A stretch of DNA of 64,000 nt from Nitrospirota bacterium. Lineage in GTDB: Bacteria > Nitrospirota > Thermodesulfovibrionia > UBA6902. This document shows, piece after piece, positions 275 through 58,897 of the stretch. Position 1 is the first letter of the stretch, and each line of letters opens with the position of its first letter. The notes under the pieces are model-generated. The model worked only from the letters and a program-made list of their open reading frames with translations, ran no database searches and was not told the origin of the DNA. The DNA is taken from the NCBI GenBank assembly GCA_016215115.1, contig JACRLN010000044.1:1-64000 (forward strand), in the 5' to 3' direction. Both the position numbers and the translations under genes were made by a program.

Positions 275-1021
275 ATGAAACTGATCATCCTGGGAAGCGG
301 CACCTGCGTGCCGTCATTGAAAAGAAATGCACCAGGCTATTATCTGGAAGCAGGAAGCTGGCAAGTACTTGTTGACTGCGGCAGCGGAACATTGCTTCAG
401 CTTGAACGGGCAGGCAAAAGCTATAAAGGCATCAACGCCTTATTCATCACTCACATGCACCCGGACCATTTCGCTGACCTGATGCCTTTAATACAGGCAT
501 TATTTTATACGCCGAAGTTTAAAAGGGAAAAAGACCTTTTTATTGTTGCGCCGGCAGGTTTTATTCAATATTATGAAAAATCTGTCGTATCCATTTTGGG
601 CAAACCGGGAGATTTCTCTATTAATATCATCGAAATTCAGGATAAACTGGACCTTGGACCATTTAATGTATTTACTGCAAAAACACTTCATTCTACCAAT
701 AGCATTGCATACAGGTTTGAACAGGGAGGCAAGTCTATTGTATTTACCGGTGATGCAGATTATGATCAGGGCATAATTGAACTATCTATAAATACCGACC
801 TTCTCATTGCAGATTGTTCGTTTCCGGATACCATGAAGGCAAAGGGACATCTTACTTCAAAGGAATGCGGCCTTGTCGCAAAAAAAGCAGGAGTAAAAAA
901 ACTGGTCCTGTCCCATCTTTATCCCGCCGACATTCCTGATATTGACAGGGTCAAAGAAGCTCAGGAAGTTTTTGACGGGAAGGTCTTAGTGGCAGAGGAC
1001 TTGATGGAAATTGAAGTTTAA
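275..1021 (+). CDS. MBL-fold metallo-hydrolase, ribonuclease Z-like
   Basis: A 248-residue metallo-beta-lactamase-fold protein. It has the strand/Gly-rich start LGSGTCVPS (6-14), the di-metal motif HMHPDH at 60-65, a later metal-ligand region FTGDAD and a terminal SHLYP histidine. The layout resembles RNase Z/ElaC and related phosphodiesterases, but it lacks the long exosite arm of true tRNase Z, so the substrate (RNA, cyclic nucleotide or other phosphodiester) cannot be assigned. No signal peptide is visible, so it is probably cytoplasmic. It precedes the deacetylase-like gene by 36 bp in the same direction and may share its transcript. The ATG at 275 has only a weak Shine-Dalgarno, but the N-terminus matches the fold. 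Confidence 0.85.
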   Translation: MKLIILGSGTCVPSLKRNAPGYYLEAGSWQVLVDCGSGTLLQLERAGKSYKGINALFITHMHPDHFADLMPLIQALFYTPKFKREKDLFIVAPAGFIQYYEKSVVSILGKPGDFSINIIEIQDKLDLGPFNVFTAKTLHSTNSIAYRFEQGGKSIVFTGDADYDQGIIELSINTDLLIADCSFPDTMKAKGHLTSKECGLVAKKAGVKKLVLSHLYPADIPDIDRVKEAQEVFDGKVLVAEDLMEIEV

Positions 1022-1057
1022 ATAATGATCTTTTGAGAGGAGTATTAGAGTTGCATC

Positions 1058-1906
1058 ATGAAAATATTTTATTCCCCGAAATGTCTTGAATATTCTCAGC
1101 CCGGTCATCCGGAATCTCCTTTGCGGGTATCGGCTGCTTATGATTACCTCCAAGAGAAAGGATTTGAATTTATTGAACCTGTCCCCTGCACAGATGATGA
1201 TATTCTGCTTGCACACACGCCTGCGTTGCTTGACAGCATAAAGAAAGAAAATTTCTTTGACTTTGATACGCCTTCTTTTCCCGGCATATACAACATTGCA
1301 AAATTATCCGCCGGAAGCGCAGTCGATGCAGCCATGCATTGTTTAGCTACAGGTGAAAAAACATTTTCTCTTATGCGTCCTCCGGGCCATCATGCTGCCA
1401 GGAAAGGACTTGGAGGCTTTTGTTATTTCAACAATATCGCCATTGCCGCTTTAAAGGCGAAAAAGAAAATTGGAAAGGCAGCAATTATAGACTTTGACTG
1501 CCATCACGGCAATGGCACTGAAGACATTTTCCTTGGTAAAAAAGATTTCCTGTATCTCTCTCTTCATCAAAGCCCATTATACCCTGGCACGGGGCTCAGA
1601 AGCAGGGAAAATTGTATTAATTATCCACTCCCTTCGCAAACAAGCCCTGGTGAATATTTATCTATTCTGGAGCAGGGGCTTGAAAAAGTGGAATTATTTG
1701 ACCCTGACTTACTGGCAATCTCTGCCGGTTTTGATACATATAAACTCGACCCCATAACCAGCTTTTCTCTCGAAAAAGAAACATACGGTGAGATAGGAAG
1801 AATGCTTGCCGGTTTACAAAAACCCACGTTTGCTATTCTTGAGGGCGGGTACAGCAGAGACCTTGCCGGATGTATCTATGAATTTCTTATTGGTCTCGAA
1901 GAATAG
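1058..1906 (+). CDS. histone deacetylase family (AcuC/class II-like) amidohydrolase
   Basis: A 282-residue arginase/deacetylase-fold enzyme. The full active site is visible: RPPGHHA with the charge-relay histidines H111-H112, zinc ligands in DFDCHHGNGT (D147 and H149), SAGFD with D226 as third ligand, and LEGGYS with the transition-state tyrosine near 265. Bacterial relatives remove acetyl groups from protein lysines, acetylpolyamines or acetoin-pathway proteins; the substrate here is unknown. A purine-rich GAGAGGAG lies about 15 bases before the ATG, slightly far for a ribosome site. It probably forms a two-gene unit with the MBL-fold gene upstream. Confidence 0.92.
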   Translation: MKIFYSPKCLEYSQPGHPESPLRVSAAYDYLQEKGFEFIEPVPCTDDDILLAHTPALLDSIKKENFFDFDTPSFPGIYNIAKLSAGSAVDAAMHCLATGEKTFSLMRPPGHHAARKGLGGFCYFNNIAIAALKAKKKIGKAAIIDFDCHHGNGTEDIFLGKKDFLYLSLHQSPLYPGTGLRSRENCINYPLPSQTSPGEYLSILEQGLEKVELFDPDLLAISAGFDTYKLDPITSFSLEKETYGEIGRMLAGLQKPTFAILEGGYSRDLAGCIYEFLIGLEE

Positions 1907-1925
1907 CACATAGTGTTTTCCTCCA

Positions 1926-1953
1926 TTGACATTACTGGATCCTATTGTATAAC
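1926..1953 (+). promoter_or_regulatory. sigma-70-type promoter for the REC-PAS gene
   Basis: TTGACA at 1926-1931 and TATAAC at 1948-1953 with a 16-bp spacer, about 55 bases before the ATG at 2007. The perfect -35 box in an intergenic region in the correct orientation supports it; the -10 deviates at its last base. Confidence 0.55.
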
Positions 1954-2006
1954 ATTTAGCTGATAAAACTTATTTATTTATCTTAGCGTTAGTTTAAAAA
2001 ACAAAA

Positions 2007-2741
2007 ATGAAGTCCCAAATCAATATTATCGTTGCTGAAAATGATAATAATTTTAATCAGTTGATACAGGAATCCTTACAGAAAGAAGGCTTTCACGTTA
2101 TAGGTGTTTTTAATGGAAAAGACACCATTGATAAAGTAGCTGAAAATCAGGACTCGGTATTATTATTAGATTGTGACCTCCCTGATATGACAGCCGGGCA
2201 GGTTATTGAAACTCTTTCTGAGAGAAAATGCAGCGTTCCTTATATACTGATTATTGAACATGGAAACGAAAAAACAGCGATAGAACTGATGAAAATGGGC
2301 GCCAGCAATTACATAATTAAAGAACCTGTCTTTAAAGATATGATCCCGATTTTAGTGAAAAAAGTTCTAAAAGGTTTAGAATGGGAAAAGGAGATAGTGG
2401 AAGTAGAGGAGATCCTGCAGAAAAGATCTTACCTGAACCAGATAATTCTTGACAGAATGCCTTGCATAACTCTTCTACTCGAATCATATACACGTGAGAT
2501 AATTGCTTCTAATGCGGCTGCAACAAAAATTGGCGCTGTTCCCGGCAAGAAATGCTTTTCAACATGGGTTCAAAGGGAAGACCCATGCCCCTGGTGCAGG
2601 GCTCCCATTTTATGGGAAAGTGGAGAGGAGCAACGTCTTGAATTTGAAGCATCAGGGTCAACATGGGACGCCTATTGGGTGCCTGTAGAGAAAAATATGT
2701 ATTTGCACTATGCATTTAAAATTTCCGACTGCATACACTGA
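2007..2741 (+). CDS. response-regulator receiver with C-terminal PAS-like domain, no output domain
   Basis: 244 residues. The N-terminal 120 are a CheY-like receiver with an acidic pocket near residue 11-13, a phospho-acceptor Asp in LLLDCDLPD and the conserved Lys in YIIKEP. The rest is PAS-like and carries a cysteine cluster, KKCFSTW followed by DPCPWCRAP. This Cys-x-Cys-x2-Cys arrangement recurs in PAS domains of anaerobic bacteria and could hold a metal or thiols; that role is inference. There is no kinase, DNA-binding, GGDEF or EAL part, so it probably acts by protein contact. It has its own promoter and sits alone, convergent with nagZ, whose stop lies 2 bp beyond its own. Confidence 0.8.
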   Translation: MKSQINIIVAENDNNFNQLIQESLQKEGFHVIGVFNGKDTIDKVAENQDSVLLLDCDLPDMTAGQVIETLSERKCSVPYILIIEHGNEKTAIELMKMGASNYIIKEPVFKDMIPILVKKVLKGLEWEKEIVEVEEILQKRSYLNQIILDRMPCITLLLESYTREIIASNAAATKIGAVPGKKCFSTWVQREDPCPWCRAPILWESGEEQRLEFEASGSTWDAYWVPVEKNMYLHYAFKISDCIH

Positions 2742-2743
2742 TA

Positions 2744-4243
2744 TCAGATCCCGAACTGACTTTTCAGTTCAACCGGCAATCGTCCCGGAAAACCCACCTC
2801 CCCTTTCAAACATTTAATAACTGATAACTGTGCCTGTACAGCCGTGTCATATGCAGCAATAAGCACATCGGCGCTCATGAAATGCCTGAGCACATAAGGA
2901 CTTCCAAAAGATATCACGATGGAGTGTCGAGATGTTTTGATGAGTTTTATTATGCCATGAATCTCCTCTTCCCTAATGCCTGAACTTCCCCTCCATGCAG
3001 CGATATTTGTGAAGATTGCAATAATAATTGTAGGGGCAGGTTTAAAACCTGCCCCTACAGAAAAAGAGGAATTATCCGGTATAAAACCTCTAAGCGGTGT
3101 CCCTTTATAAACACTCTCATCACCCACAAATGCAAGATAAACACCTTTAACATCATTTATCGGCAATACTCCGGAGGTATCTTTCACAAGGGTAACAGAT
3201 TTATCAGAAATTATTGTGGAAAGTTCCCTGTGACTTTCATAGTCGGCTTCCTGTATTTTAATATTTTTTATCCTGGCCTTCATTCTCAAAATTCTCTCGA
3301 CAGCGACATTTATCTTGATCTCATGAACTTCACCTGAATCAATGGCATGCTCTAACTCCTCAACTGTTAAATCAGCATCTGCCGGATGAAGCAGGATATC
3401 AGCTCCGGCATTTATACACTGTGCGGGGACATGTTTTTCTTTATTCAATGCGCTCATATTTAATGCATCCGTAAGGACGAGCCCTTCATAACTCAGATCC
3501 TTCCTCAGCAGATTAGTTATTATCTTTTCTGAAAGAGTAGCGGGCAGTATATCAATTGCCGGGATGCTGAGATGACCAATCATAATGCTGCTTACACCGG
3601 CCTTTACAGCTTCTACGAAAGGCAATATATCTATATCCACCAGATTGTTCAAAGATTTTGAAATCACCGGAAGTTCAATGTGAGAATCAATAGATGTGTC
3701 ACCATGTCCGGGAAAATGCTTTGCGCAGCTTATTAAGCCTGTATCTTCAAGAATCCTGATATAAGCATTTCCATACCAGGCAACTTCTTCCGGATTATCA
3801 GAAAAAGCCCTCGTACAGATTATGGGATTATCAGGATTCCTGTTCACGTCCAGAACCGGAATTAATGGCATGTTGATCCCGATATCAATAGCTTCCTGAG
3901 CTACGGCATGAATTGCATCATGGAGGATTTTCACATCATCGATTTTGTTTTTATTAATTGCAGCTGATACAGCCATCTGGCAGGGGAAATGTGTTGAGCC
4001 TTCAATTTGCTGCCCAACTCCACGCTCTATATCTGACGCCATAAAAAGAGGTATTTCCGAAACAGTCTGCAGGTTATCGATAAAACTTTTTACTTCATCC
4101 TTTTTACCGCCAAAGATTATGAACCCTCCGACCCCTTTTTGAACAAGTTCTATAGCCTTCTCCCGGTAAGAACTTAAGGAGAGTTTTACACCATCGAGTC
4201 TGTTGATGATGAGTTGGTAGAGTTTCTGTTCAAGGCTCAGCAT
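2744..4243 (-). CDS. nagZ: beta-N-acetylhexosaminidase, glycoside hydrolase family 3
   Basis: A 499-residue GH3 enzyme expected to release GlcNAc from peptidoglycan fragments during cell-wall recycling. The NagZ signature KHFPGHGDTSIDSH is at 175-188, including the loop Asp-His acid/base pair, and the nucleophile Asp lies in VLTDALN near 259. Unlike the short (~340 aa) proteobacterial NagZ it has a C-terminal GH3 domain, as in Bacillus-type enzymes. No signal peptide is visible. Residues about 395-405 read VGAGFKPAPT, the in-frame translation of a palindromic repeat at 3030-3058, so the inter-domain linker has been invaded without breaking the frame. It is the last gene of the YeeE-ccsA-resB operon, 11 bp after resB. 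Confidence 0.92.
   Translation of the reverse strand: MLSLEQKLYQLIINRLDGVKLSLSSYREKAIELVQKGVGGFIIFGGKKDEVKSFIDNLQTVSEIPLFMASDIERGVGQQIEGSTHFPCQMAVSAAINKNKIDDVKILHDAIHAVAQEAIDIGINMPLIPVLDVNRNPDNPIICTRAFSDNPEEVAWYGNAYIRILEDTGLISCAKHFPGHGDTSIDSHIELPVISKSLNNLVDIDILPFVEAVKAGVSSIMIGHLSIPAIDILPATLSEKIITNLLRKDLSYEGLVLTDALNMSALNKEKHVPAQCINAGADILLHPADADLTVEELEHAIDSGEVHEIKINVAVERILRMKARIKNIKIQEADYESHRELSTIISDKSVTLVKDTSGVLPINDVKGVYLAFVGDESVYKGTPLRGFIPDNSSFSVGAGFKPAPTIIIAIFTNIAAWRGSSGIREEEIHGIIKLIKTSRHSIVISFGSPYVLRHFMSADVLIAAYDTAVQAQLSVIKCLKGEVGFPGRLPVELKSQFGI
3030..3058. repeat. palindromic repeat inside nagZ
   Basis: Two 14-base arms, GTAGGGGCAGGTTT and its exact reverse complement, are separated by one base. 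Read on the minus strand it encodes VGAGFKPAPT in the nagZ frame. A related double hairpin starting GTAGGGGCAGGT lies at 8577-8631. Confidence 0.9.
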
Positions 4244-4254
4244 AGGACACCGAT

Positions 4255-4983
4255 TTACCTTTCCATGTTAATCTTCAGGGCGATAAGAGTAATGATACCT
4301 ACCATGAATAAAATACTGCCGGCCAGAGCCCAGACAGCGCCTGGTTCCCTGCTTATCTGGAGAAGAATTGCTTTATAAGGATATTCCTGCAAATTTTTAA
4401 CATTTATATTAAACCCCATCCGCACCGAAGGGCTGTTTGGTACAATTGTATCTGTCTGAAACATTTTCCCTTCTTTGAGATATTCAACGCCGACCTTCCA
4501 GTCAGTAATATATCCGTTGTAATCTGACTGAATATTTATATCCTTAATTTTTAAAACTGCGTTATCTGAAATCCTGAACATATTGCCTTCCAGGGCAACT
4601 GCAAACTGCTGGTAACTTCCGACTGCGCTCATTAAATGTGCAAGCAACATAAAGAGGAACCCGATATGTATTATCTGCGGGGAGATCAGCAGTAGCCATT
4701 GAGTAACCTTTCGCTTCTTTATAATAGATTCAACACTGCAGAAAAGTGTATTGACAGTAAGGAACGTGAGTATGCCTATCAAACCCCACAGCCACCATGT
4801 GATTGTAATCGGCTGGATTTTCAGCCATTCAAACATCGGGATTGAATGAATTGTCTCGAATTCCTGTTGAGCCGGCATGATAAAAGCGCCTGCAAGCATC
4901 AGCACCAGCATGAAACCCAACAACCACAGAGTTGTTTTGAGGGAGAAGAAAAAGTTTGCAAGATGTTTAAGTAATTTTTTCAT
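4255..4983 (-). CDS. resB: ResB-like cytochrome c biogenesis protein (short form)
   Basis: 242 residues with three N-terminal membrane helices (about 12-35, 62-82 and 95-118), an extracytoplasmic segment of roughly 90 residues and a last helix near 213-235. This is the ResB/Ccs1 topology, but about half the usual length (~450 residues). With CcsA it forms the System II haem-handling and cytochrome c synthetase complex. The opening FFFSLKTTLWLL is typical of ResB. It follows ccsA in the same direction after a 187-bp gap holding a palindromic repeat, and nagZ begins 11 bp after it. Whether this short form is sufficient without a second ResB part cannot be judged here. Confidence 0.82.
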   Translation of the reverse strand: MKKLLKHLANFFFSLKTTLWLLGFMLVLMLAGAFIMPAQQEFETIHSIPMFEWLKIQPITITWWLWGLIGILTFLTVNTLFCSVESIIKKRKVTQWLLLISPQIIHIGFLFMLLAHLMSAVGSYQQFAVALEGNMFRISDNAVLKIKDINIQSDYNGYITDWKVGVEYLKEGKMFQTDTIVPNSPSVRMGFNINVKNLQEYPYKAILLQISREPGAVWALAGSILFMVGIITLIALKINMER

Positions 4984-48729: not shown

Positions 48730-48790
48730 AATAACAATGCAAATTTAAAATGCCACTTTAAATTTGCATTGTTGTGAAATTATTGTTATT
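48730..48790. promoter_or_regulatory. nested palindromes upstream of the DUF4143 ATPase
   Basis: ACAATGCAAATTTAAA (48734-48749) and its exact complement (48757-48772) enclose 7 bases. Outside them AATAACAAT (48730-48738) and ATTGTTATT (48782-48790) form a second inverted pair. They end 8 bases before the ATG at 48799, so this could be an operator or a translation-controlling hairpin. Confidence 0.6.
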
Positions 48791-48798
48791 CTATTGCC

Positions 48799-50007
48799 AT
48801 GAAGTATATTCACCGTCAGATTGAGCGGAAGGTAAAGCATCTTGTGCGTTCGTTTCCGAGCATTGCGATAACAGGGCCGAGACAGTCGGGCAAATCAACC
48901 CTTCTCATTAATACGCTCAAAGGATACAGGTACATTACATTCGACGACCCGCTGACACGCGAACGTGCAATCTCCGATCCGCAGTTCTTTATCGACTCGC
49001 TCGGTGAAAAGACAATTATTGACGAGATACAGTATGCGCCGGGCATCCTTTCATACATCAAGATGAAAATAGACGGAAACAGGGATAGAAAAGGCATGTA
49101 TATTTTCACCGGCTCGCAGCAGTTTACGATGATAAAGAATTTAGGGGATTCCCTTGCCGGCAGGATTGCGTTATTGGACCTGCTGCCGTTTTCGGTCGTC
49201 GAGAAAAAAGAAAGCGTAAGGCTCAAAACCACCCTTGATTATTTTGTAAATGCAGCCCTGACCGGCTCATATCCCGAGCTTATCGTTGATCCGTCTATGG
49301 ACCTCTATTCATGGTATGGCTCTTACATACAGACCTACCTTGAGCGTGACATAAGAAGCCTTTATCACATCGGCAATCTGAGGGATTTCCAGCGGTTCAT
49401 GCAGCTTCTTGCGGGCCGATGCGCTCAAATATTAAACCTCTCCGATTTTGCAAAGGGTCTGGGCGTGAGCGTGCCTACGATTAAAAACTGGCTTTCGGTG
49501 CTTGAGGCGAGCAGAATTATTTACCTGCTGCCCCCTTACTATAATAATCTGGGGAAAAGAATAACCAAGTCACCCAAAATCTATTTTACGGATATAGGCA
49601 TAGTCTGCTATCTTACTGGCGTCAGGGACAAGACCCATCTGCTGCAAGGCCCTATGGCAGGCGCCCTGTTTGAGAATTTCTGCATACAGGAGGCGCTAAA
49701 AGTGTTTTTCAATCAGGGACAAAGCCCGAGGCTCTATTATCTCCGAATGGGCAACAACCTCGAAATTGACCTTCTTATAGAAAGGTCGGCAAGATCGTTA
49801 ATACCGATGGAGATTAAACTTAGCAAGACGCCGTCCCTTGGCATGGGATCAGCCATCTCACGATTCAGGAACCTGTTCTCCGCTTTTGACGTCGGAAAAG
49901 GATTTATCGTCTCATTGGCTGAGCAAACTATTCCCTTAGGCAGAGAGTTGACGGCGATAACCTTTGATGATTATCTGAAAGAACTGACAAAAGTCACTGT
50001 GGCATAA
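48799..50007 (+). CDS. AAA-type ATPase with DUF4143 C-terminal domain
   Basis: 402 residues. Walker A GPRQSGKST (26-34), Walker B TIIDEIQ, sensor FTGSQQF, then the DUF4143 domain with a winged-helix-like DFAKGLGVSVPTIKNWLSVLEAS and a PD-(D/E)xK-like NNLEIDLLIER...PMEIKLSK. These widespread orphan genes are often seen in accessory regions and next to toxin-antitoxin loci; function is unproven. The nested palindromes upstream suggest autoregulation. Confidence 0.88.
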   Translation: MKYIHRQIERKVKHLVRSFPSIAITGPRQSGKSTLLINTLKGYRYITFDDPLTRERAISDPQFFIDSLGEKTIIDEIQYAPGILSYIKMKIDGNRDRKGMYIFTGSQQFTMIKNLGDSLAGRIALLDLLPFSVVEKKESVRLKTTLDYFVNAALTGSYPELIVDPSMDLYSWYGSYIQTYLERDIRSLYHIGNLRDFQRFMQLLAGRCAQILNLSDFAKGLGVSVPTIKNWLSVLEASRIIYLLPPYYNNLGKRITKSPKIYFTDIGIVCYLTGVRDKTHLLQGPMAGALFENFCIQEALKVFFNQGQSPRLYYLRMGNNLEIDLLIERSARSLIPMEIKLSKTPSLGMGSAISRFRNLFSAFDVGKGFIVSLAEQTIPLGRELTAITFDDYLKELTKVTVA

Positions 50008-50322: not shown

Positions 50323-53300
50323 ATGGGAACTATTTTTGAAATCAAGAATGAAGACCTTCAGCGTTTAAGGCCTATCGAAGCTGTTAATTTTTTTCGCGAA
50401 TTAATATGGGCTGAAGCCAGAATAAAAAAAATCCCTATCAGTAAAATCCATATATCAATTCTTACTAATATCCCCGATGGTGGGATAGATGCTGTTGTTG
50501 AGGAAAGCAGTTTAGAATATTCAGATTTAATCAAGTCAGGTCAAACAGCATACCAGATAAAGACAGGCACTTCTTTTAAGCCGTGGCAGGACTCGGCAAT
50601 AAGAGCTGAATTGTTCAATACTCATGACCCAGAAAGGAAGTATTTAGCCAGTGGGATTCGGAATTGCCTTGATAATAATGGCACCTATATATTAGTTTGC
50701 TTTGGTTTAGACCTGGTTGATTCTCAGCACAGAAAGGCTGTCGAATTAATTGAAAATCATCTGAAAGGATGCGCATATAAAAATCCGAAAGTGGAAGTGT
50801 GGAGTTTAAATAATTTAATAGGCTTTCTTAAACCTTTTCCATCATTGTCATTGAAAGTTAATAGACGAGGCGAGTTAATATTCCAGACTTATCAAAGCTG
50901 GAGCCGGGATTCTGAAATGAGGAAGGATTTCATAGCAGGGAAAAAGCAAACTGAGTTTATCTCGAACATTCAAACAGAGCTGAGACAAAGCACAGATGCA
51001 GTGCACATAAGGGTATGGGGCGAACCAGGAATCGGCAAAACAAGACTTGTCTTTGAAGCCACTAGAGTGGATGATTTACGGGCGCTCGTCATTTATTGCG
51101 ACACTGCCGGGAAGTTCAGAGACAGTGAGTTGATGAGCGAAATTTTAAGGGATGACAATACTTTTTCTGTAATTTTAGTTATTGATGAGTGTGACCCTGA
51201 CAGCAGATCCTACATTTGGAACAAAGTTAAATATCTCGGACCAAGAATTAAAATCATAACGATTTATAACGATTATGAAGAAACTTCGGGAAAAATCAAT
51301 TATATTGATGTACCTCCCTTGGAAGAAGAGCAGGTGGGTGAAATAATTCAAAATTATGGTGTCCCAAAAGACCAGGTTAGACGGTGGGCGGATCTCTGCA
51401 GCGGCTCTCCCCGAGTAGCTCATGTTTTTGGTCAAAACCTGATCAGTAATCCTGAAGACCTATTGAAGTCTCCAGATACAATAAATATTTGGGATCGCTA
51501 TATTGTAGGAAGCGATGATTCAGGAAGTAGTGAAGTACGGCAAAGGAAACTAGTACTTAAATATCTTGCATTGTTCAGAAGATTCGGTTATGGGAAACCA
51601 GTTATTGAAGAATCACAGGCCATAGCTGCAAAAATTGCAGCCGCCGATGCATCAATAACATGGTCAAGATTTCAGGAAATAATAAATGAATTAAAACAAC
51701 GAAAAATTCTTCAGGGTGAATCCACCTTGTATATTACCCCAAAAGCACTTCATATAAAGTTATGGATCGACTGGTGGAATGTTCACGGAGAGGGATTCGA
51801 TATCGAAAAATTTTCTGATGGCCTCCCCGGTAAATTACTTGAATGGTTTTATGAAATGTTTAAGTATGCTGCAAGCTCGCAGGTTGCCTCTCGTATCGTT
51901 AAAGAACTTCTCAGTGAGATAGGACCATTTTATAGGAATAAGTATTTGGAAACTAAACTTGGGCCGCCTTTTTTTTTAGCACTGTCTGAAGCTGACCCTC
52001 AATCAGCATTGGATTTCCTGAAAAAAACTATAGGCCGGTTAAATAAAGAAGAGTTACTCCAATTTACAACTGGTCGCAGAGAGGTTGTCTGGGCTCTTGA
52101 AAGAATGGCAATCTGGAAAAATCTGTTTGCCGACGCGGCAAGATTACTACTCATTCTTGGTGAAGCTGAAAACGAAACGTGGGGCAATAATGCCAGTGGT
52201 GCTTTTGCTGATTTATTCTCGATGGGGTATGGAAGGGTTGCGTCTACAGAGGCCCCTCCTGAGGAACGCCTTCCCATATTAAAGGAAGCACTATATTCAG
52301 ATTCCAGAGAGATGAGACTTCTTGCATTACGCGCCTGTGAAAAGGCTTTGGAGTCACAGCATTTTAGCAGAGTTGTTGGTGCAGAATACCAGGGTTTAAG
52401 AAAGGAACCGGAATTATGGATGCCAAAAACTTATGGTGAAATCTTTAATGCTTATCGAAGCATATGGGAGCTATTGTCAGAGAGACTGGGGACTTTGCCC
52501 GATGACGAAAAGCAGCAAGCAGTAGACGTTCTGGTCAATCGCTCCCGCGGTTTACAAAGAATGGAAAACTTAGCGGATATGGTGATGGATACTTTTAATG
52601 ATTTAATACAGAAGCCTTATGTTGATAAGAAAAAAATTCTTACTAAAGCTGTAGAAGTCCTTCATTATGAAGGAAAAGAATTGACTGAAAAAACCCGTAA
52701 GGGCTGGGAAAAATTAAGAAACGATCTGACCGGGACAGATTTTTCTTCTCTTTTAAAGCGTTTTGTAGGAATGAGTCTCGTTGAGGATGATTATGATTTG
52801 GAAGGCAAAAGGACTAATTTATCGGAGAAGCGAATTAAAGAGTTGGCAGAGCAGGCTAAAAATGATATTAGCTTGTTGAAACCGGAGTTAAAGTGGGTAG
52901 TTACAAACGACGCTCAAAACGGCCACTCATTCGGTTATGAATTGGGAATAATTGACAATAATTTTTCGCTCTTACCTTTACTTCTTAAAGTTCAGCGGAA
53001 TTCAGGAGAAAACGGAAGCGTATTCTTTATCGGCGGTTATTTTCGTGCTTTGTTCGAAAAAGAGCAGAAAACGTGGGAAAAAGAGTTAACCGCCTTGGCA
53101 GGAGATGATACACTTAACAAATGGTTGCCTGAAATTATCTGGAGATCAGGCATGTCTGACGAGGCTGCTTCTCTACTACTTAATTTAGCAAGAAAAGAGG
53201 TTATTAAAATTAATCAATTCAAAATATTCACGTACGGAAATTCTATTAAGTCTGTATCCGAGAATGCGTTTCACGAATGGATATATTTCTTGCTTGATAA

Positions 53301-54111
53301 TGCAGATAGTGAAACCATTTCAATGATGTTAAGGTTGTTTCATTATTATTATCTTCATCATAGAAAAAACCTTATTTTGCCTGAAAAATTAACATTTAAA
53401 TTATTAACACACCATTCTCTTTTTCAATTTGAAAGTCAAAAGGCACGGGAGCAAAGGGATGAGTATGACTGGACTGAAATAGGTAAGGAATTCGTTAAAC
53501 TTTATCCAGGTAGAAGTTTTGAAATTGCGGATGTAATGCTTGAGCATTTGGGAGATGATAATTCAATATTTGATGATTATTTTTCACAAACTCTTGAAGT
53601 TTTGAATGCTATCCTTTTAAAAAATCCGGGGGAGATTTGGAAACGGGTTACAAAATATATTGGCCCCCCGATCGATTCAAGAGCCTATAATATTACACAG
53701 TGGTTACGTGGTGGTGAGCATCGTGCATTAAAGGAAGGGGCAATATCTGTCATCCCTCTTGATAATATCTGGGAGTGGGTCGATGAGGATGTTAATCAAC
53801 GTGCATGGTATCTGGCGAGCTTTATTCCTAATAAATTATATATAAGAACCGGGGAAATATGCCTTTCCAGGGAAGTGCTCATCCGTTATGGAGAGGATGA
53901 ACATGTCCGCCGTAATTTAAGATCAAATTTTTCAACGGAGAGCTATTGGGGACCCAGAAGCGAACATTTATCTTCAAAAGCAGACGACTTATTGAAAATA
54001 AGAAATATTGAAAGTAACGAGAATGTTAAACAATGGATTGATGAATACGTATCAATTCTGAAAAAAGAAATAGTGCAAGCCAGAATAGACGAAGAAAGAA
54101 GGGGATATTGA
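50323..54111 (+). CDS. PD-(D/E)xK nuclease-STAND-type NTPase, candidate defence protein
   Basis: 1262 residues. The N-terminal ~180 show a restriction-endonuclease pattern like Mrr/DUF4297: D56 in DGGIDAVVE and Q78-I-K80 in YQIKTG. The NTPase domain follows with Walker A GEPGIGKT (233-240) and Walker B VILVIDECD (283-291), then a helical arm and winged-helix-like region (to about 480). Residues 500-1262 are alpha-helical without a recognised domain, in the place where antiviral STAND (Avs) proteins keep their TPR-like target sensor. Membrane helices are absent. The combination suggests a sensor that activates DNA cleavage on phage infection. I cannot match it to a named Avs type. A cyclase-like gene lies convergent, 28 bp after the stop. 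Confidence 0.75.
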   Translation: MGTIFEIKNEDLQRLRPIEAVNFFRELIWAEARIKKIPISKIHISILTNIPDGGIDAVVEESSLEYSDLIKSGQTAYQIKTGTSFKPWQDSAIRAELFNTHDPERKYLASGIRNCLDNNGTYILVCFGLDLVDSQHRKAVELIENHLKGCAYKNPKVEVWSLNNLIGFLKPFPSLSLKVNRRGELIFQTYQSWSRDSEMRKDFIAGKKQTEFISNIQTELRQSTDAVHIRVWGEPGIGKTRLVFEATRVDDLRALVIYCDTAGKFRDSELMSEILRDDNTFSVILVIDECDPDSRSYIWNKVKYLGPRIKIITIYNDYEETSGKINYIDVPPLEEEQVGEIIQNYGVPKDQVRRWADLCSGSPRVAHVFGQNLISNPEDLLKSPDTINIWDRYIVGSDDSGSSEVRQRKLVLKYLALFRRFGYGKPVIEESQAIAAKIAAADASITWSRFQEIINELKQRKILQGESTLYITPKALHIKLWIDWWNVHGEGFDIEKFSDGLPGKLLEWFYEMFKYAASSQVASRIVKELLSEIGPFYRNKYLETKLGPPFFLALSEADPQSALDFLKKTIGRLNKEELLQFTTGRREVVWALERMAIWKNLFADAARLLLILGEAENETWGNNASGAFADLFSMGYGRVASTEAPPEERLPILKEALYSDSREMRLLALRACEKALESQHFSRVVGAEYQGLRKEPELWMPKTYGEIFNAYRSIWELLSERLGTLPDDEKQQAVDVLVNRSRGLQRMENLADMVMDTFNDLIQKPYVDKKKILTKAVEVLHYEGKELTEKTRKGWEKLRNDLTGTDFSSLLKRFVGMSLVEDDYDLEGKRTNLSEKRIKELAEQAKNDISLLKPELKWVVTNDAQNGHSFGYELGIIDNNFSLLPLLLKVQRNSGENGSVFFIGGYFRALFEKEQKTWEKELTALAGDDTLNKWLPEIIWRSGMSDEAASLLLNLARKEVIKINQFKIFTYGNSIKSVSENAFHEWIYFLLDNADSETISMMLRLFHYYYLHHRKNLILPEKLTFKLLTHHSLFQFESQKAREQRDEYDWTEIGKEFVKLYPGRSFEIADVMLEHLGDDNSIFDDYFSQTLEVLNAILLKNPGEIWKRVTKYIGPPIDSRAYNITQWLRGGEHRALKEGAISVIPLDNIWEWVDEDVNQRAWYLASFIPNKLYIRTGEICLSREVLIRYGEDEHVRRNLRSNFSTESYWGPRSEHLSSKADDLLKIRNIESNENVKQWIDEYVSILKKEIVQARIDEERRGY

Positions 54112-54139: not shown

Positions 54140-54994
54140 CTATAATGGGGTTTCAAGATGTTCCAGTTGTCTCTCATATTTTTCGACATCGAAGGTCAGA
54201 TGGGGAAAGTTTACTTCGGCACTAGTAACCCACTTATTATGGTATTTCGCAAAGTATATCAGCTTACCAAGTTCTTTAACATTATTGAAGTTACTTTCTA
54301 TACAGAGTTTAATGCCCTCTTTGACATGCGTTAATAAATCTTCTTTAAGATCACCCCAAATGCGGAGTGCAGTATAAATATTAAGACAATAATAGCCGTC
54401 TTCATCTTCGTAAAAGAATTTATGGATGTTAGGATATGAAATCTCCTTTAGATAAAGTTGTAGGTTTTTATCCATAACTATGCGGGGGTTTACTGCCTTT
54501 TTGGTCTCCAGAGTAACTGCCCGGTTGTGTGCTTCACTGAATACAAACAGTTGTTGGTCACGATCACTTTCGTAATGTTTGCCAATCGAGATGCCTCCTC
54601 TCAACAGATAACCCATCTTGGAGATAAAAAGAGTGGTGAACATCGTCATTAATGAGAAGTAGGTCTCAATGCAATTCAGAACAGTTGTTTTCTCATCAAA
54701 AGACGTACTCCTGAAATTGATTTCAGAAACCGGCAAAGTAAAAATAAAGCTATCAGCATTGTTTCTCACATGTATGGCGTTTGTAATTTTTTGGAAGTAT
54801 TGCTGTTCCTCCTCATCTGTTTCTTCAACAACCTTGGTAAGGTCTATTCCTCGCAATCCCTTTAATGTCCCAATGGAAACACCATAGAACAAGTTCTCGA
54901 GATCCTTGACAAGTTCTGCACGTCCCATTGCTCTTTCAACTAGATCTTGATAACCCAGGATATCGATATAACCTACCATAGTATTAACAAACAT
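54140..54994 (-). CDS. class III nucleotide-cyclase-like protein
   Basis: 284 residues, not a canonical member. VGYIDILGYQDLVE matches the first metal-binding strand (D11), NNADSFIFT supplies a second Asp (D81), LRGGISIG (131-138) the next strand and VFSEAHNRAVTLE (151-163) the FGxAxNxAxxLE helix. The usual transition-state Arg in that helix is Thr or Val here and the gap between the metal Asps is long, so activity may differ or be lost. Pycsar-type cyclases share this fold, but no effector gene lies beside it. A TTGACT-N17-TAATTT promoter-like pair lies just upstream of the ATG. Confidence 0.6.
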   Translation of the reverse strand: MFVNTMVGYIDILGYQDLVERAMGRAELVKDLENLFYGVSIGTLKGLRGIDLTKVVEETDEEEQQYFQKITNAIHVRNNADSFIFTLPVSEINFRSTSFDEKTTVLNCIETYFSLMTMFTTLFISKMGYLLRGGISIGKHYESDRDQQLFVFSEAHNRAVTLETKKAVNPRIVMDKNLQLYLKEISYPNIHKFFYEDEDGYYCLNIYTALRIWGDLKEDLLTHVKEGIKLCIESNFNNVKELGKLIYFAKYHNKWVTSAEVNFPHLTFDVEKYERQLEHLETPL

Positions 54995-55813: not shown

Positions 55814-56470
55814 TCATTTATAGATGATGTTTTCAGATTTTTCTTCTAAAGACCAGTAGACGAAGCGGGCATCTTCTTCGCTCAATACTAAATAGATTGA
55901 AGTAAACGGGCTGCCTTTAATTGAATTCCATATTGTAAGTATGGGACGGGATAAATACCAGCCGGTGTAGCTGCTCATTTTATAAAGTCTTGAAAGAAAT
56001 CCTGCCCCTTTGGGACTTATGGATATAAAAATTCCTTCATGAAATTCGAGACGGTAGGTTGTCGGCATATCCTTCAGCTCCAGAGCTTCGATCTCGAATG
56101 CACCGGGAGTTGTAGTTGTATTTGTGCTGGTCTCTTCTTTGGCTTTGTTGGGATCTATATTTACTCTTTTTGGTTCTTTAAACAAGGCGCTCTTCTTAAG
56201 CATGGTCCGCGGCGCTGCATCAACAGGCTCGCCCCAGAATTTTATATCCTCAATCTTCATTTCCTTGAGTAAAATTCCCCGTGATTTTAGCAGTATCTCT
56301 TTGTCTTTCAGGTTGAAGATAAAATATATAACCGGTTTTTTAGCTACTTTCAATTCCGCTTCAAGCAGATTAATCTCATTTTTAGTACCGGCAGAATATT
56401 GAGATATTGCTTCTGTCTTAACAACAACTGCAAGGAAAATAACGAGGAGGGCACTGAAGAGGATTTTCAT
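55814..56470 (-). CDS. exported hypothetical protein in the L,D-transpeptidase operon
   Basis: 218 residues. A signal peptide (about 1-22, VVVKTEA) precedes a soluble domain with no recognised motif. A Thr-rich stretch (TSTNTTTTPGAF) at about 114-126 looks like a linker. It starts 1 bp after the stop of the L,D-transpeptidase gene, so a role in envelope or peptidoglycan maintenance is suggested by position only. Confidence 0.6.
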   Translation of the reverse strand: MKILFSALLVIFLAVVVKTEAISQYSAGTKNEINLLEAELKVAKKPVIYFIFNLKDKEILLKSRGILLKEMKIEDIKFWGEPVDAAPRTMLKKSALFKEPKRVNIDPNKAKEETSTNTTTTPGAFEIEALELKDMPTTYRLEFHEGIFISISPKGAGFLSRLYKMSSYTGWYLSRPILTIWNSIKGSPFTSIYLVLSEEDARFVYWSLEEKSENIIYK

Positions 56471-56471
56471 G

Positions 56472-57098
56472 CTAAAAGATTATTACCTTGGTGCCTATTG
56501 AAATTGTATTATAAAGTTCTTTAAGGTCTGCATCTCCAACTCTTACGCATCCGTGTGTTACGTTGCGGCCCAGAAGCCTTGTATATAGAGTGCCGTGTAT
56601 CATATATCCGTCACCGAGATGAAAAGCATAATCTCCGAGCACGCCTTCTTCCATCCTGTCTTTGTAGCTTTTAGGGACCTCCTCTCCTTCTTCAATGAAG
56701 GCCCAGTCAGGCTTGGTCCATACAGGATTTGTTGTCTTTGACTGGATTGAAAGTTCACCTCTTGGGGTGTCAAATATCCATTGCCTGTTGCCGGCAGGGT
56801 CATTAAGGATGCTGCCGCTTCCGGTAGAAACTACAACTTCTTTCAAGGTCTGCTCCCCTTTTTTTACATAGAGCCTGTTTTTTGCCGTATCTATCACGAG
56901 ATAAGTTCCTTTTGGAGAAAGATTGGAGATGCGTTTTTTTAAGTTAGCATTTCTTGAATTTAGATATTGCAACGACTTTATACTTTCTGTTTTATGTGAA
57001 ACATTCCCGCGTCCGGAAAGATAAATGCCACAGGCTTCCAGAGCGAGAAAGACACCGAAAATTACAAGTATTGTGACAATCACTATTTTCTTTTTCAA
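56472..57098 (-). CDS. L,D-transpeptidase (YkuD), membrane-anchored
   Basis: 208 residues. An N-terminal helix (about 5-24) anchors the protein. A YkuD domain has YLVIDTAKNRLYV and the catalytic motif HGTLYTRLLGRNVTHGCVRVGD with the His pair and C184. It forms 3-3 cross-links in peptidoglycan or attaches lipoproteins. It starts 2 bp after the stop of the larger paralogue, within one operon. Confidence 0.9.
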   Translation of the reverse strand: MKKKIVIVTILVIFGVFLALEACGIYLSGRGNVSHKTESIKSLQYLNSRNANLKKRISNLSPKGTYLVIDTAKNRLYVKKGEQTLKEVVVSTGSGSILNDPAGNRQWIFDTPRGELSIQSKTTNPVWTKPDWAFIEEGEEVPKSYKDRMEEGVLGDYAFHLGDGYMIHGTLYTRLLGRNVTHGCVRVGDADLKELYNTISIGTKVIIF

Positions 57099-57100
57099 AT

Positions 57101-58207
57101 TTATAAGTCCTTTATTGTTGAAGATATTATGTTGTCGTAGTCAATGGCTCCTACAATTGTGACAGGAGTGCCAGCGTCAACTAAACTGTAGAGTTCAGCC
57201 ATCTGATTGTTTTCCATAGCAATGCATCCATATGTCATCCCTTCGGTACCGCCGCCGTGTATTTCGATAAGTCCGCCGATACCAACCCTCGAGGAAATGA
57301 GTCCGTTCTTCCTGGCCCTTGCAAATTGTCTTTGGTCTTCATCATTAGGATAATTTATAAGCAGTGCTTTATAATAGCGGCTTCTTGGCAGCTTTTTAGT
57401 TATATAATATTTACCTTCAGGAGTTGCCAGGTCGCCGGCATGGATTTTATCATGAAAACCGTTTTTTCCAAGCCCTATTAAATAAGTTTTATAAGGAACG
57501 CCGTTTTTATATAGAACCAGTTTCCGGTCAATTTTGCTTACAAAAATTGAGTAGATGCCTTTTTCTCTCGAGGTTTCAATAGTATCATTTACCCATGTGC
57601 GCCACTTTGCTATCTGCTCTTTATTGGCATATCTGTTGAGTACAGGAGATATTGACTCTGTTGCCGATGCTGTGTATACAGGTAAGATCTTAAGTTTTTT
57701 CTCTGCCTCCGGATATTTCCCTTTTTCAGCAAGGCGTTGCACCTCCTTTAAAAGGAGTTCCGCACTTATTAATTGTCTCCTTGAAAGTCTTCCTTCATTG
57801 ATAAGAGAGGTCAATTTTTTAAGTGTATCAATCCTGCCCTGGAAAAAAGCAATCTGACTTGTTAGGGCGGATAATTTTATACGCTTCAGCTCCCGGATGT
57901 TATTGAGGAGGTTGTTACCAGTTAAAAGAACATCGCTGAATTCCTTCTGGATGGATTCATAATCCCTGAACCATGCAAACCTGCTCTCTTCGGCTATAAG
58001 ATGGTCTTTACCGTTTCTCAAGGATTGCTTATAAGTCCTGTACTCCTGCGGTGTATAAATGTCTGCACCAGACCTCCAGAGTTCATGTTCCTGCGTTTCC
58101 GCAATCGCGACCTCTGGAGGTACTGGAGCAGTGTTACAACCGATGAGAATGCTCAGGCATACAAGAAGAAACGTACTGATGATGCCATGAACAAAACGTA
58201 ATTGCAT
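57101..58207 (-). CDS. L,D-transpeptidase lipoprotein with N-terminal helical domain
   Basis: 368 residues. A lipoprotein signal ends in LIGC (C24). Residues 40-215 are helical and charged. The YkuD domain follows: SKIDRKLVLYKNG, then IHGGGTEGMTYGCIAM with C328 as catalytic Cys. Likely lipid-anchored peptidoglycan cross-linking enzyme. Starts 4 bp after the stop of the preceding lipoprotein gene. Confidence 0.9.
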   Translation of the reverse strand: MQLRFVHGIISTFLLVCLSILIGCNTAPVPPEVAIAETQEHELWRSGADIYTPQEYRTYKQSLRNGKDHLIAEESRFAWFRDYESIQKEFSDVLLTGNNLLNNIRELKRIKLSALTSQIAFFQGRIDTLKKLTSLINEGRLSRRQLISAELLLKEVQRLAEKGKYPEAEKKLKILPVYTASATESISPVLNRYANKEQIAKWRTWVNDTIETSREKGIYSIFVSKIDRKLVLYKNGVPYKTYLIGLGKNGFHDKIHAGDLATPEGKYYITKKLPRSRYYKALLINYPNDEDQRQFARARKNGLISSRVGIGGLIEIHGGGTEGMTYGCIAMENNQMAELYSLVDAGTPVTIVGAIDYDNIISSTIKDL

Positions 58208-58211
58208 TCCC

Positions 58212-58835
58212 TTATTTTTTCTTCTCAGCCTTCGGAGCTGCCTTTGCTGGTTTTGCCTTTTCCATAGCTGCTGTGATCTGGCCGGCTACTTCTGCTGCCT
58301 TGTCTTTTGCGCCGTTTGCCTTGTCAGTTGCGGCTAAATAGTCTTCACTGTCGATCAGGCCCTGTGCTTCGGTCAATGCCGCCTCAAGTCCGGCAACATC
58401 TGCACGCATAGCTTCGATGTCAGCCTTTGTGCCTTTTCCTTTAGGCGCCTTGCCTAACAATGCCTTTGCATCACTTACAGCGGTCTTGGCAGCATCGAGT
58501 GCCGCAATGGCGTCATTCTTGGCTTTCTCTTTTCTTGCCGGTATTTCAGCTTTCAGAGTGTCTGCGCTGCTTTTTACTTTAGCAAGAATCTCTTTTGCCT
58601 TATCATAGTTCTTGAAGAATTTTCCATCCTGAACCTTGACTTCATCCATTGCCGCTGTTAACTGATCATTCAGTGACTTTACTTCCTCTTTTGCATATTT
58701 TTCGCCGCCCTCTGCAAGTACAGCATCAATTGATGCCTTTGAATCGTTCATTTCCTGTGTAGGCTGTTTTGCACAGGAAGTAAGTACAACAAGCATGGCC
58801 ATAACTACTGTTAAAGATAGTAATAGTCTTTTCAT
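58212..58835 (-). CDS. alpha-helical lipoprotein (DUF4398-like)
   Basis: About 207 residues from the ATG at 58835, which has AGGAGG 8 bases upstream; the in-frame ATG at 58856 adds seven residues and has no such site. The lipobox LTSC gives C21. The mature part is almost all alpha-helical with Ala/Lys heptad-like repeats and a Lys-rich end (KPAKAAPKAEKKK), as in cell-wall-binding lipoproteins. The neighbouring L,D-transpeptidases could attach it to peptidoglycan. First gene after a sigma-54 promoter. Confidence 0.75.
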   Translation of the reverse strand: MKRLLLSLTVVMAMLVVLTSCAKQPTQEMNDSKASIDAVLAEGGEKYAKEEVKSLNDQLTAAMDEVKVQDGKFFKNYDKAKEILAKVKSSADTLKAEIPARKEKAKNDAIAALDAAKTAVSDAKALLGKAPKGKGTKADIEAMRADVAGLEAALTEAQGLIDSEDYLAATDKANGAKDKAAEVAGQITAAMEKAKPAKAAPKAEKKK

Positions 58836-58897
58836 GTCTTGTTCCTCCTTTCTCATAGGTTATTAATTAATACCAATGGTATTCGGAAGCACAAGAT

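Follow-up and report, generated by a model that had tools for sequence, protein, structure and literature searches.

The window, that is, the whole stretch of 64,000 nt of Nitrospirota DNA that was analysed, contains on its forward strand an open reading frame that runs from an ATG at position 50323 to a stop at 54111 and encodes a protein of 1262 amino acids (Table 1). The gene has no internal stops and is present as a single copy in its own 2.82-Mb genome. For the analysis of the protein we relied on 18 aligned homologues that are between 56% and 18% identical to it, and on AlphaFold2 (AF2) models that were confident both for residues 1-500 (pLDDT 80) and for residues 345-1262 (pLDDT 85). 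A previous sequence-only reading had proposed that a nuclease, a STAND NTPase and a helical C-terminal region are joined in this protein, and this composition was borne out by the motifs, hhalign, Foldseek and AF2.

Table 1. Features of the gene encoding the 1262-aa protein and of neighbouring genes. Positions are those of the window.
Feature	Position	Strand	Basis
AAA_14/DUF4143 ATPase	48799..50007	+	PADLOC phage-defence candidate PDC-S01, E 5.5e-97
Complete gene, 1262 aa	50323..54111	+	Solo, diverged member of the PD-λ-4_A family
Mrr-like PD-(D/E)xK nuclease domain, residues 1-180	50323..50862	+	hhalign to Mrr_cat; AF2 strand/helix order
DGGID, residues 52-56, first catalytic motif (D52/D56)	50476..50490	+	D52, G53, G54, D56 invariant in 18 homologues
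QIK, residues 78-80, second catalytic motif, QxK variant of (D/E)xK	50554..50562	+	Q78, K80 invariant; aligned with QxK of Mrr
STAND NTPase core, residues 206-345	50938..51357	+	Foldseek matches; AAA_16 in 13/18 homologues
Walker A GEPGIGKT, residues 233-240 (K239)	51019..51042	+	G233, G238, K239, R241 invariant
Walker B ..VIDEC, residues 284-290 (D288)	51172..51192	+	D288, C290 nearly invariant
Helical and probable winged-helix part of STAND module, residues 346-500	51358..51822	+	AF2 models; within NLR-type structural matches
GSPR, residues 361-364, putative GxP-like motif as in STAND/NB-ARC proteins	51403..51414	+	G361, P363 nearly invariant; motif identity inferred
HEAT-like alpha-solenoid, presumed sensor arm, residues 501-1262	51823..54108	+	AF2 all helical; Foldseek
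Best-conserved stretch, residues 585-704	52075..52434	+	GRR, E616, NN622-623, T642, G686, QG690-691, P701
Convergent 284-aa gene, no recognised family	54140..54994	-	In 3/101 related genomes including its own

The DUF4143 ATPase gene has a G+C content of 0.466, compared with ~0.41 for the region. Just upstream of it, positions 48733-48773 hold a 41-nt inverted repeat (19 pairs, loop of 3) that could be either a terminator or an operator. At the other end, the convergent 284-aa gene is accessory and sporadic. The sequence-only reading had described the surroundings as an accessory block. The DUF4143 protein does match PDC-S01, but neither it nor the 284-aa gene, which that reading called cyclase-like, is a conserved partner. 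Both were considered as functional partners and discarded, since neither recurs beside any relative. Further downstream, a block at 55814-58856 is conserved in eight same-genus genomes. None of the genes lying between 43 and 55.8 kb adjoins this block in those genomes, weak histidine-kinase matches excepted, indicating that the gene under study lies in a variable region. No full defence island was found around it in the window, where most of the surrounding genes are housekeeping ones and the DUF4143 ATPase is the exception.

Nuclease domain, STAND module and helical arm

The residues singled out by the sequence-only reading, D56, QIK (78-80) and K239, had been placed correctly and are invariant in the 18 homologues. 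Inside the N-terminal domain, invariance extends to D52, G53, G54, D56, Q78 and K80, down to 18% identity. We aligned with hhalign a profile of residues 1-201 built from the 18 sequences and a Mrr_cat alignment comprising 20 sequences from 20 genomes. The score was 33.2 (E = 1.8e-4), with DGGID falling on DGGIDG and QIK on QAK, followed by the downstream strands in order. As controls, 200 column shuffles scored 12.5 ± 2.5 (mean ± sd) and never exceeded 25.5, reversing the alignment gave 13.9, and other, unrelated segments from this protein family stayed at or below 20.6. In the AF2 model the domain consists of helix 17-34, strands 42-44, 57-61 and 73-80, helix 110-117, strand 121-126, helix 133-149 and strand 156-160, an order that fits the one expected for a PD-(D/E)xK nuclease core. 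Given the invariant motifs, the hhalign score against the shuffle controls and the confident AF2 models, the motifs and the nuclease-type alignment of the protein are well above chance. The sequence-only reading had made its case depend on a nuclease fold, and both the shuffle-controlled alignment to Mrr_cat and the AF2 order are compatible with one.

Direct searches of this region were less informative. Pfam gave nothing convincing for residues 1-200 in any of the 18 homologues, Mrr_cat itself having no direct match, and PDB sequence searches matched no solved nuclease, the profile matches being designed proteins and P-loop proteins. When residues 1-500 were compared by Foldseek, the NTPase dominated and no nuclease appeared among the 50 matches listed. 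Cap4 and DUF4365 were considered as other nuclease yardsticks, the sampled genomes holding too few sequences of them for a comparison. Between the 1262-aa product and the Mrr-type restriction endonucleases (PF04471), the nuclease core and the DGGIDG/QxK motifs can be aligned in the same order; the difference is that a STAND switch and a solenoid are attached to the nuclease here.

The top structural matches of residues 1-500 were STANDs of the NLR/APAF-1 type, namely NRC2, APAF-1, CED-4, SSO1545 and MalT, and Cdc6/ORC and RuvB were also matched (E values from ~4e-8 to 3e-6). Whole-model TM-scores were low, as expected for a model whose nuclease has no counterpart in the NLR-type matches. Apart from AAA_16 (Table 1), Pfam detected NB-ARC and nSTAND weakly and in few homologues. 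The conservation of K239, D288 and G361/P363 together with the fold matches to NLR, APAF-1 and MalT identifies the module as a STAND NTPase. The likeness to the NLR/APAF-1-type proteins is at the level of the fold (~9-16% identity), and the effector here, unlike theirs, is a nuclease.

The rest of the protein, residues 345-1262, was modelled by AF2 as essentially all helical. Foldseek matched the C-terminus to SF3b, PP2A-A and importins, and also to condensin and cohesin subunits, with TM-scores so low (~0.3 or less) that the term HEAT-like names a class and not a relative. Among seven close relatives, residues 601-700 showed the highest mean pairwise identity of any 100-residue segment (0.59), above the NTPase core (0.46) and the nuclease (0.42), and they were also the best conserved segment in the 18-member set. 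Conservation of the stretch comprised between residues 585 and 704 suggests a conserved ligand or interface of the solenoid. The possibility of a hypervariable C-terminal sensor was rejected, because identity declines only mildly beyond residue 700 (0.35-0.44) and no hypervariable block is present. In a relative encoded by a haloarchaeal plasmid (L024:9968-13766), the protein is split after the NTPase into two overlapping genes of 353 and 914 aa, which may correspond to a natural domain boundary or to a frameshift.

Relationship to PD-λ-4 component A and distribution

PD-λ-4 belongs to a set of 21 systems that were obtained by selection from E. coli isolates and confirmed in phage challenges (Vassallo et al. 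2022, PMC9519451). A 2023 review lists it with the P-loop NTPases but does not include it under PD-(D/E)xK (PMC10952713). The PADLOC model PD-Lambda-4_A (PDLC03991) matched residues 3-769 of the 1262 (E = 8.1e-30), the only other PADLOC match to the protein being a second PD-Lambda-4_A model. An Enterobacter plasmid protein matches the PD-Lambda-4_A model end to end (1-1283), a cyanobacterial relative does so over 5-1245, and in the 18-member alignment both match the 1262-aa protein along their entire length. Through these intermediates, the C-terminal half can be placed in the PD-λ-4_A family although the model match ends at residue 769. The C-terminus, which the sequence-only reading had not recognised, is a HEAT-like solenoid common end to end to that family, and the new trigger suggested by that reading would be no more than a possibility. 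Judging from these homologies, the protein is already classifiable as a remote relative, standing alone, of component A of PD-λ-4 (PADLOC PDLC03989-PDLC03991), to which it is homologous in the nuclease, the NTPase and, via the intermediates, the full solenoid. The DGGxD...QxK motifs and the Walker A and Walker B residues are common to both. Compared with the enterobacterial PD-λ-4_A, identity is ~20% and the protein falls into a separate clade; compared with PD-λ-4 as a system, gene B is absent here and in nearly all relatives, whose hosts include archaea.

Searches with the component B model (PDLC03992) gave no match in the protein's own genome, and the gene downstream of A in the window is convergent and unrelated to B. 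Among 27 genomes or records carrying A, B was present in one, an enterobacterial prophage DNA (L045) in which it starts 46 bp after A; it was not found on the Enterobacter plasmid that carries A. Since B was looked for and is absent, the locus is not a complete PD-λ-4 system. It can be described, on sequence grounds, as a solo variant of the PD-λ-4_A family, placed in a clade apart together with archaeal, poribacterial and plasmid-borne members. The A allele of L045 was present in 151 of 5426 E. coli genomes, and in 131 of these the match spanned 80% or more of the gene length; the DNA of the Enterobacter PD-λ-4_A gave no match in E. coli genomes. In an E. coli control genome the PD-Lambda-4_B model found a match and the A model did not, so relatives of B occur without A. 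L045 also encodes, at 787-4533 on the reverse strand, a 1248-aa protein whose gene is divergently oriented to that of PD-λ-4_A and which has no Pfam or PADLOC match.

Relatives sharing 49-58% identity were found in Methanophagales/Methanosarcinales archaea and in Poribacteria, and more distant ones on plasmids of Pseudanabaena (cyanobacteria), haloarchaea, alphaproteobacteria and Enterobacter, as well as on IMG/VR contigs. In the tree, where bacteria and archaea are intermixed, the protein grouped with sequences from archaea, Poribacteria and cyanobacteria, and the enterobacterial PD-λ-4_A proteins formed a branch away from it. The gene was detected in none of the 36 genomes of the same genus and family and in 14 of 396 across the phylum, its own included. 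Curated phage records gave no match; with viral contigs, one of several family queries gave no match and the others did match.

A descriptive tally of individual loci showed that relatives may have an Eco57I-type methylase or a type I specificity gene directly upstream, and that SspC and phosphorothioation-associated genes as well as PD-T4-5/AbiD-like and ABC-three-component genes also occur as neighbours; one relative lies in prophage-like DNA. On one IMG/VR contig, a relative is found with a SIR2-STAND-like protein and a Mrr-like nuclease gene. The SIR2-STAND-like protein of this contig (L039:3113-7426) has 1438 aa and long helical repeats. No neighbour gene recurs beside A across the diverse loci. 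Overall, the relatives are sporadic, horizontally spread and often defence-associated, in agreement with the sequence-only reading. That reading had also held that homologues confined to housekeeping contexts would speak against it; several in fact have R-M, Ssp, Abi or SIR2-STAND genes next to them or belong to prophages.

Proposed function and alternative explanations

Avs proteins are composed of an effector, a STAND switch and a C-terminal sensor (summarised in PMC12931631). The 1262-aa protein resembles Avs1-Avs4 in its nuclease effector, its STAND NTPase, its long C-terminal repeat sensor and the trigger-then-cut logic proposed for it. It differs from them in that its repeats look HEAT-like, and it is not known to recognise a terminase or portal. 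Membership in Avs was ruled out, since no AVAST model matched in PADLOC and no Avs was present among the PDB profile matches. Hence, of the antiviral STAND of Avs type proposed by the sequence-only reading, the general layout stands and the family does not, PD-λ-4_A taking its place. By analogy, the protein probably works like an Avs protein without being one.

We consider it likely that the gene encodes an antiviral sensor-effector that acts as a single protein against phages or plasmids and is a distant homologue of PD-λ-4 component A. Due to its relationship with the component A of an anti-phage system and to a family that is common to bacteria and archaea, the protein probably acts, by analogy, as a sensor-triggered nuclease alarm, virus-triggered and DNA-cutting. 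At rest, the STAND protein would be nucleotide-bound and inactive. The HEAT-like arm would then meet an intruder-derived molecule, either through the conserved 585-704 surface or through the more variable remainder, and nucleotide exchange or hydrolysis at K239/D288 would lead to oligomerisation in the manner of NLRs. This would gather the N-terminal Mrr-like nuclease domains and DNA would be cut via D52/D56, Q78 and K80. We infer the DNA substrate, the oligomerisation, the virus-derived trigger and the outcome, be it cell death or direct immunity. The ~20% identity to enterobacterial PD-λ-4_A, the missing B and the lack of a full defence island in the window count against the sensor-effector reading, as do the failure of the sequence searches to match any solved nuclease and the low TM-scores of the C-terminus.

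The main rival is a direct-acting, NTP-gated, restriction-like nuclease, whose solenoid would bind foreign DNA or a DNA-protein complex and which would cut the invader alone. In its DNA-binding version, ends, replication forks or modified DNA would replace a viral protein as the target of the solenoid. It deserves this place because 7 of the 11 DNase-like systems in the selection that yielded PD-λ-4 confer direct immunity and not abortive infection (PMC9519451). The resemblance of the nuclease domain to Mrr, a restriction endonuclease family, the HEAT solenoids of condensin and cohesin among the fold matches and the R-M genes beside several relatives point the same way. Still, a STAND module followed by a long solenoid is the layout of protein-sensing NLR/Avs proteins and no known DNA-binding domain was detected, and we regard direct restriction as unlikely. 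A PD-λ-4-like system that depends on another gene product, unlinked or unrecognised, to stand in for B appears more improbable still: the B gene lying 46 bp after A in L045 shows that at least one branch has a partner, but B was found neither in the protein's own genome nor in 26 of the 27 genomes or records with A, the Enterobacter plasmid among them, and no other gene recurs beside A in distant relatives. Finally, a nuclease-ATPase with a role outside defence, be it in DNA repair, in the maintenance of plasmids or in rivalry among mobile elements, would suit the many plasmid-borne relatives and the mostly housekeeping neighbourhood in the window, and is made very improbable by the homology with a defence protein that has been validated, the sporadic presence, the chromosomal and prophage copies and the repeated defence neighbours.

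We tentatively raise a broader proposal, possible though on the doubtful side, in which the protein would represent a solo class of nuclease-STAND receptors of bacteria and archaea not described before. The arm surface 585-704, better conserved than the catalytic domains, would bind either a trigger that bacterial and archaeal viruses have in common or a ligand that the host itself sets free when infected.

Taken together, these findings indicate that A is usually found without B and that the PD-λ-4_A family crosses the boundary between bacteria and archaea. They tie the validated but poorly understood PD-λ-4 to a testable design, composed of a Mrr-like nuclease, an NLR-type switch and a HEAT-like arm, and flag one conserved surface of the solenoid where a trigger or a partner may bind.
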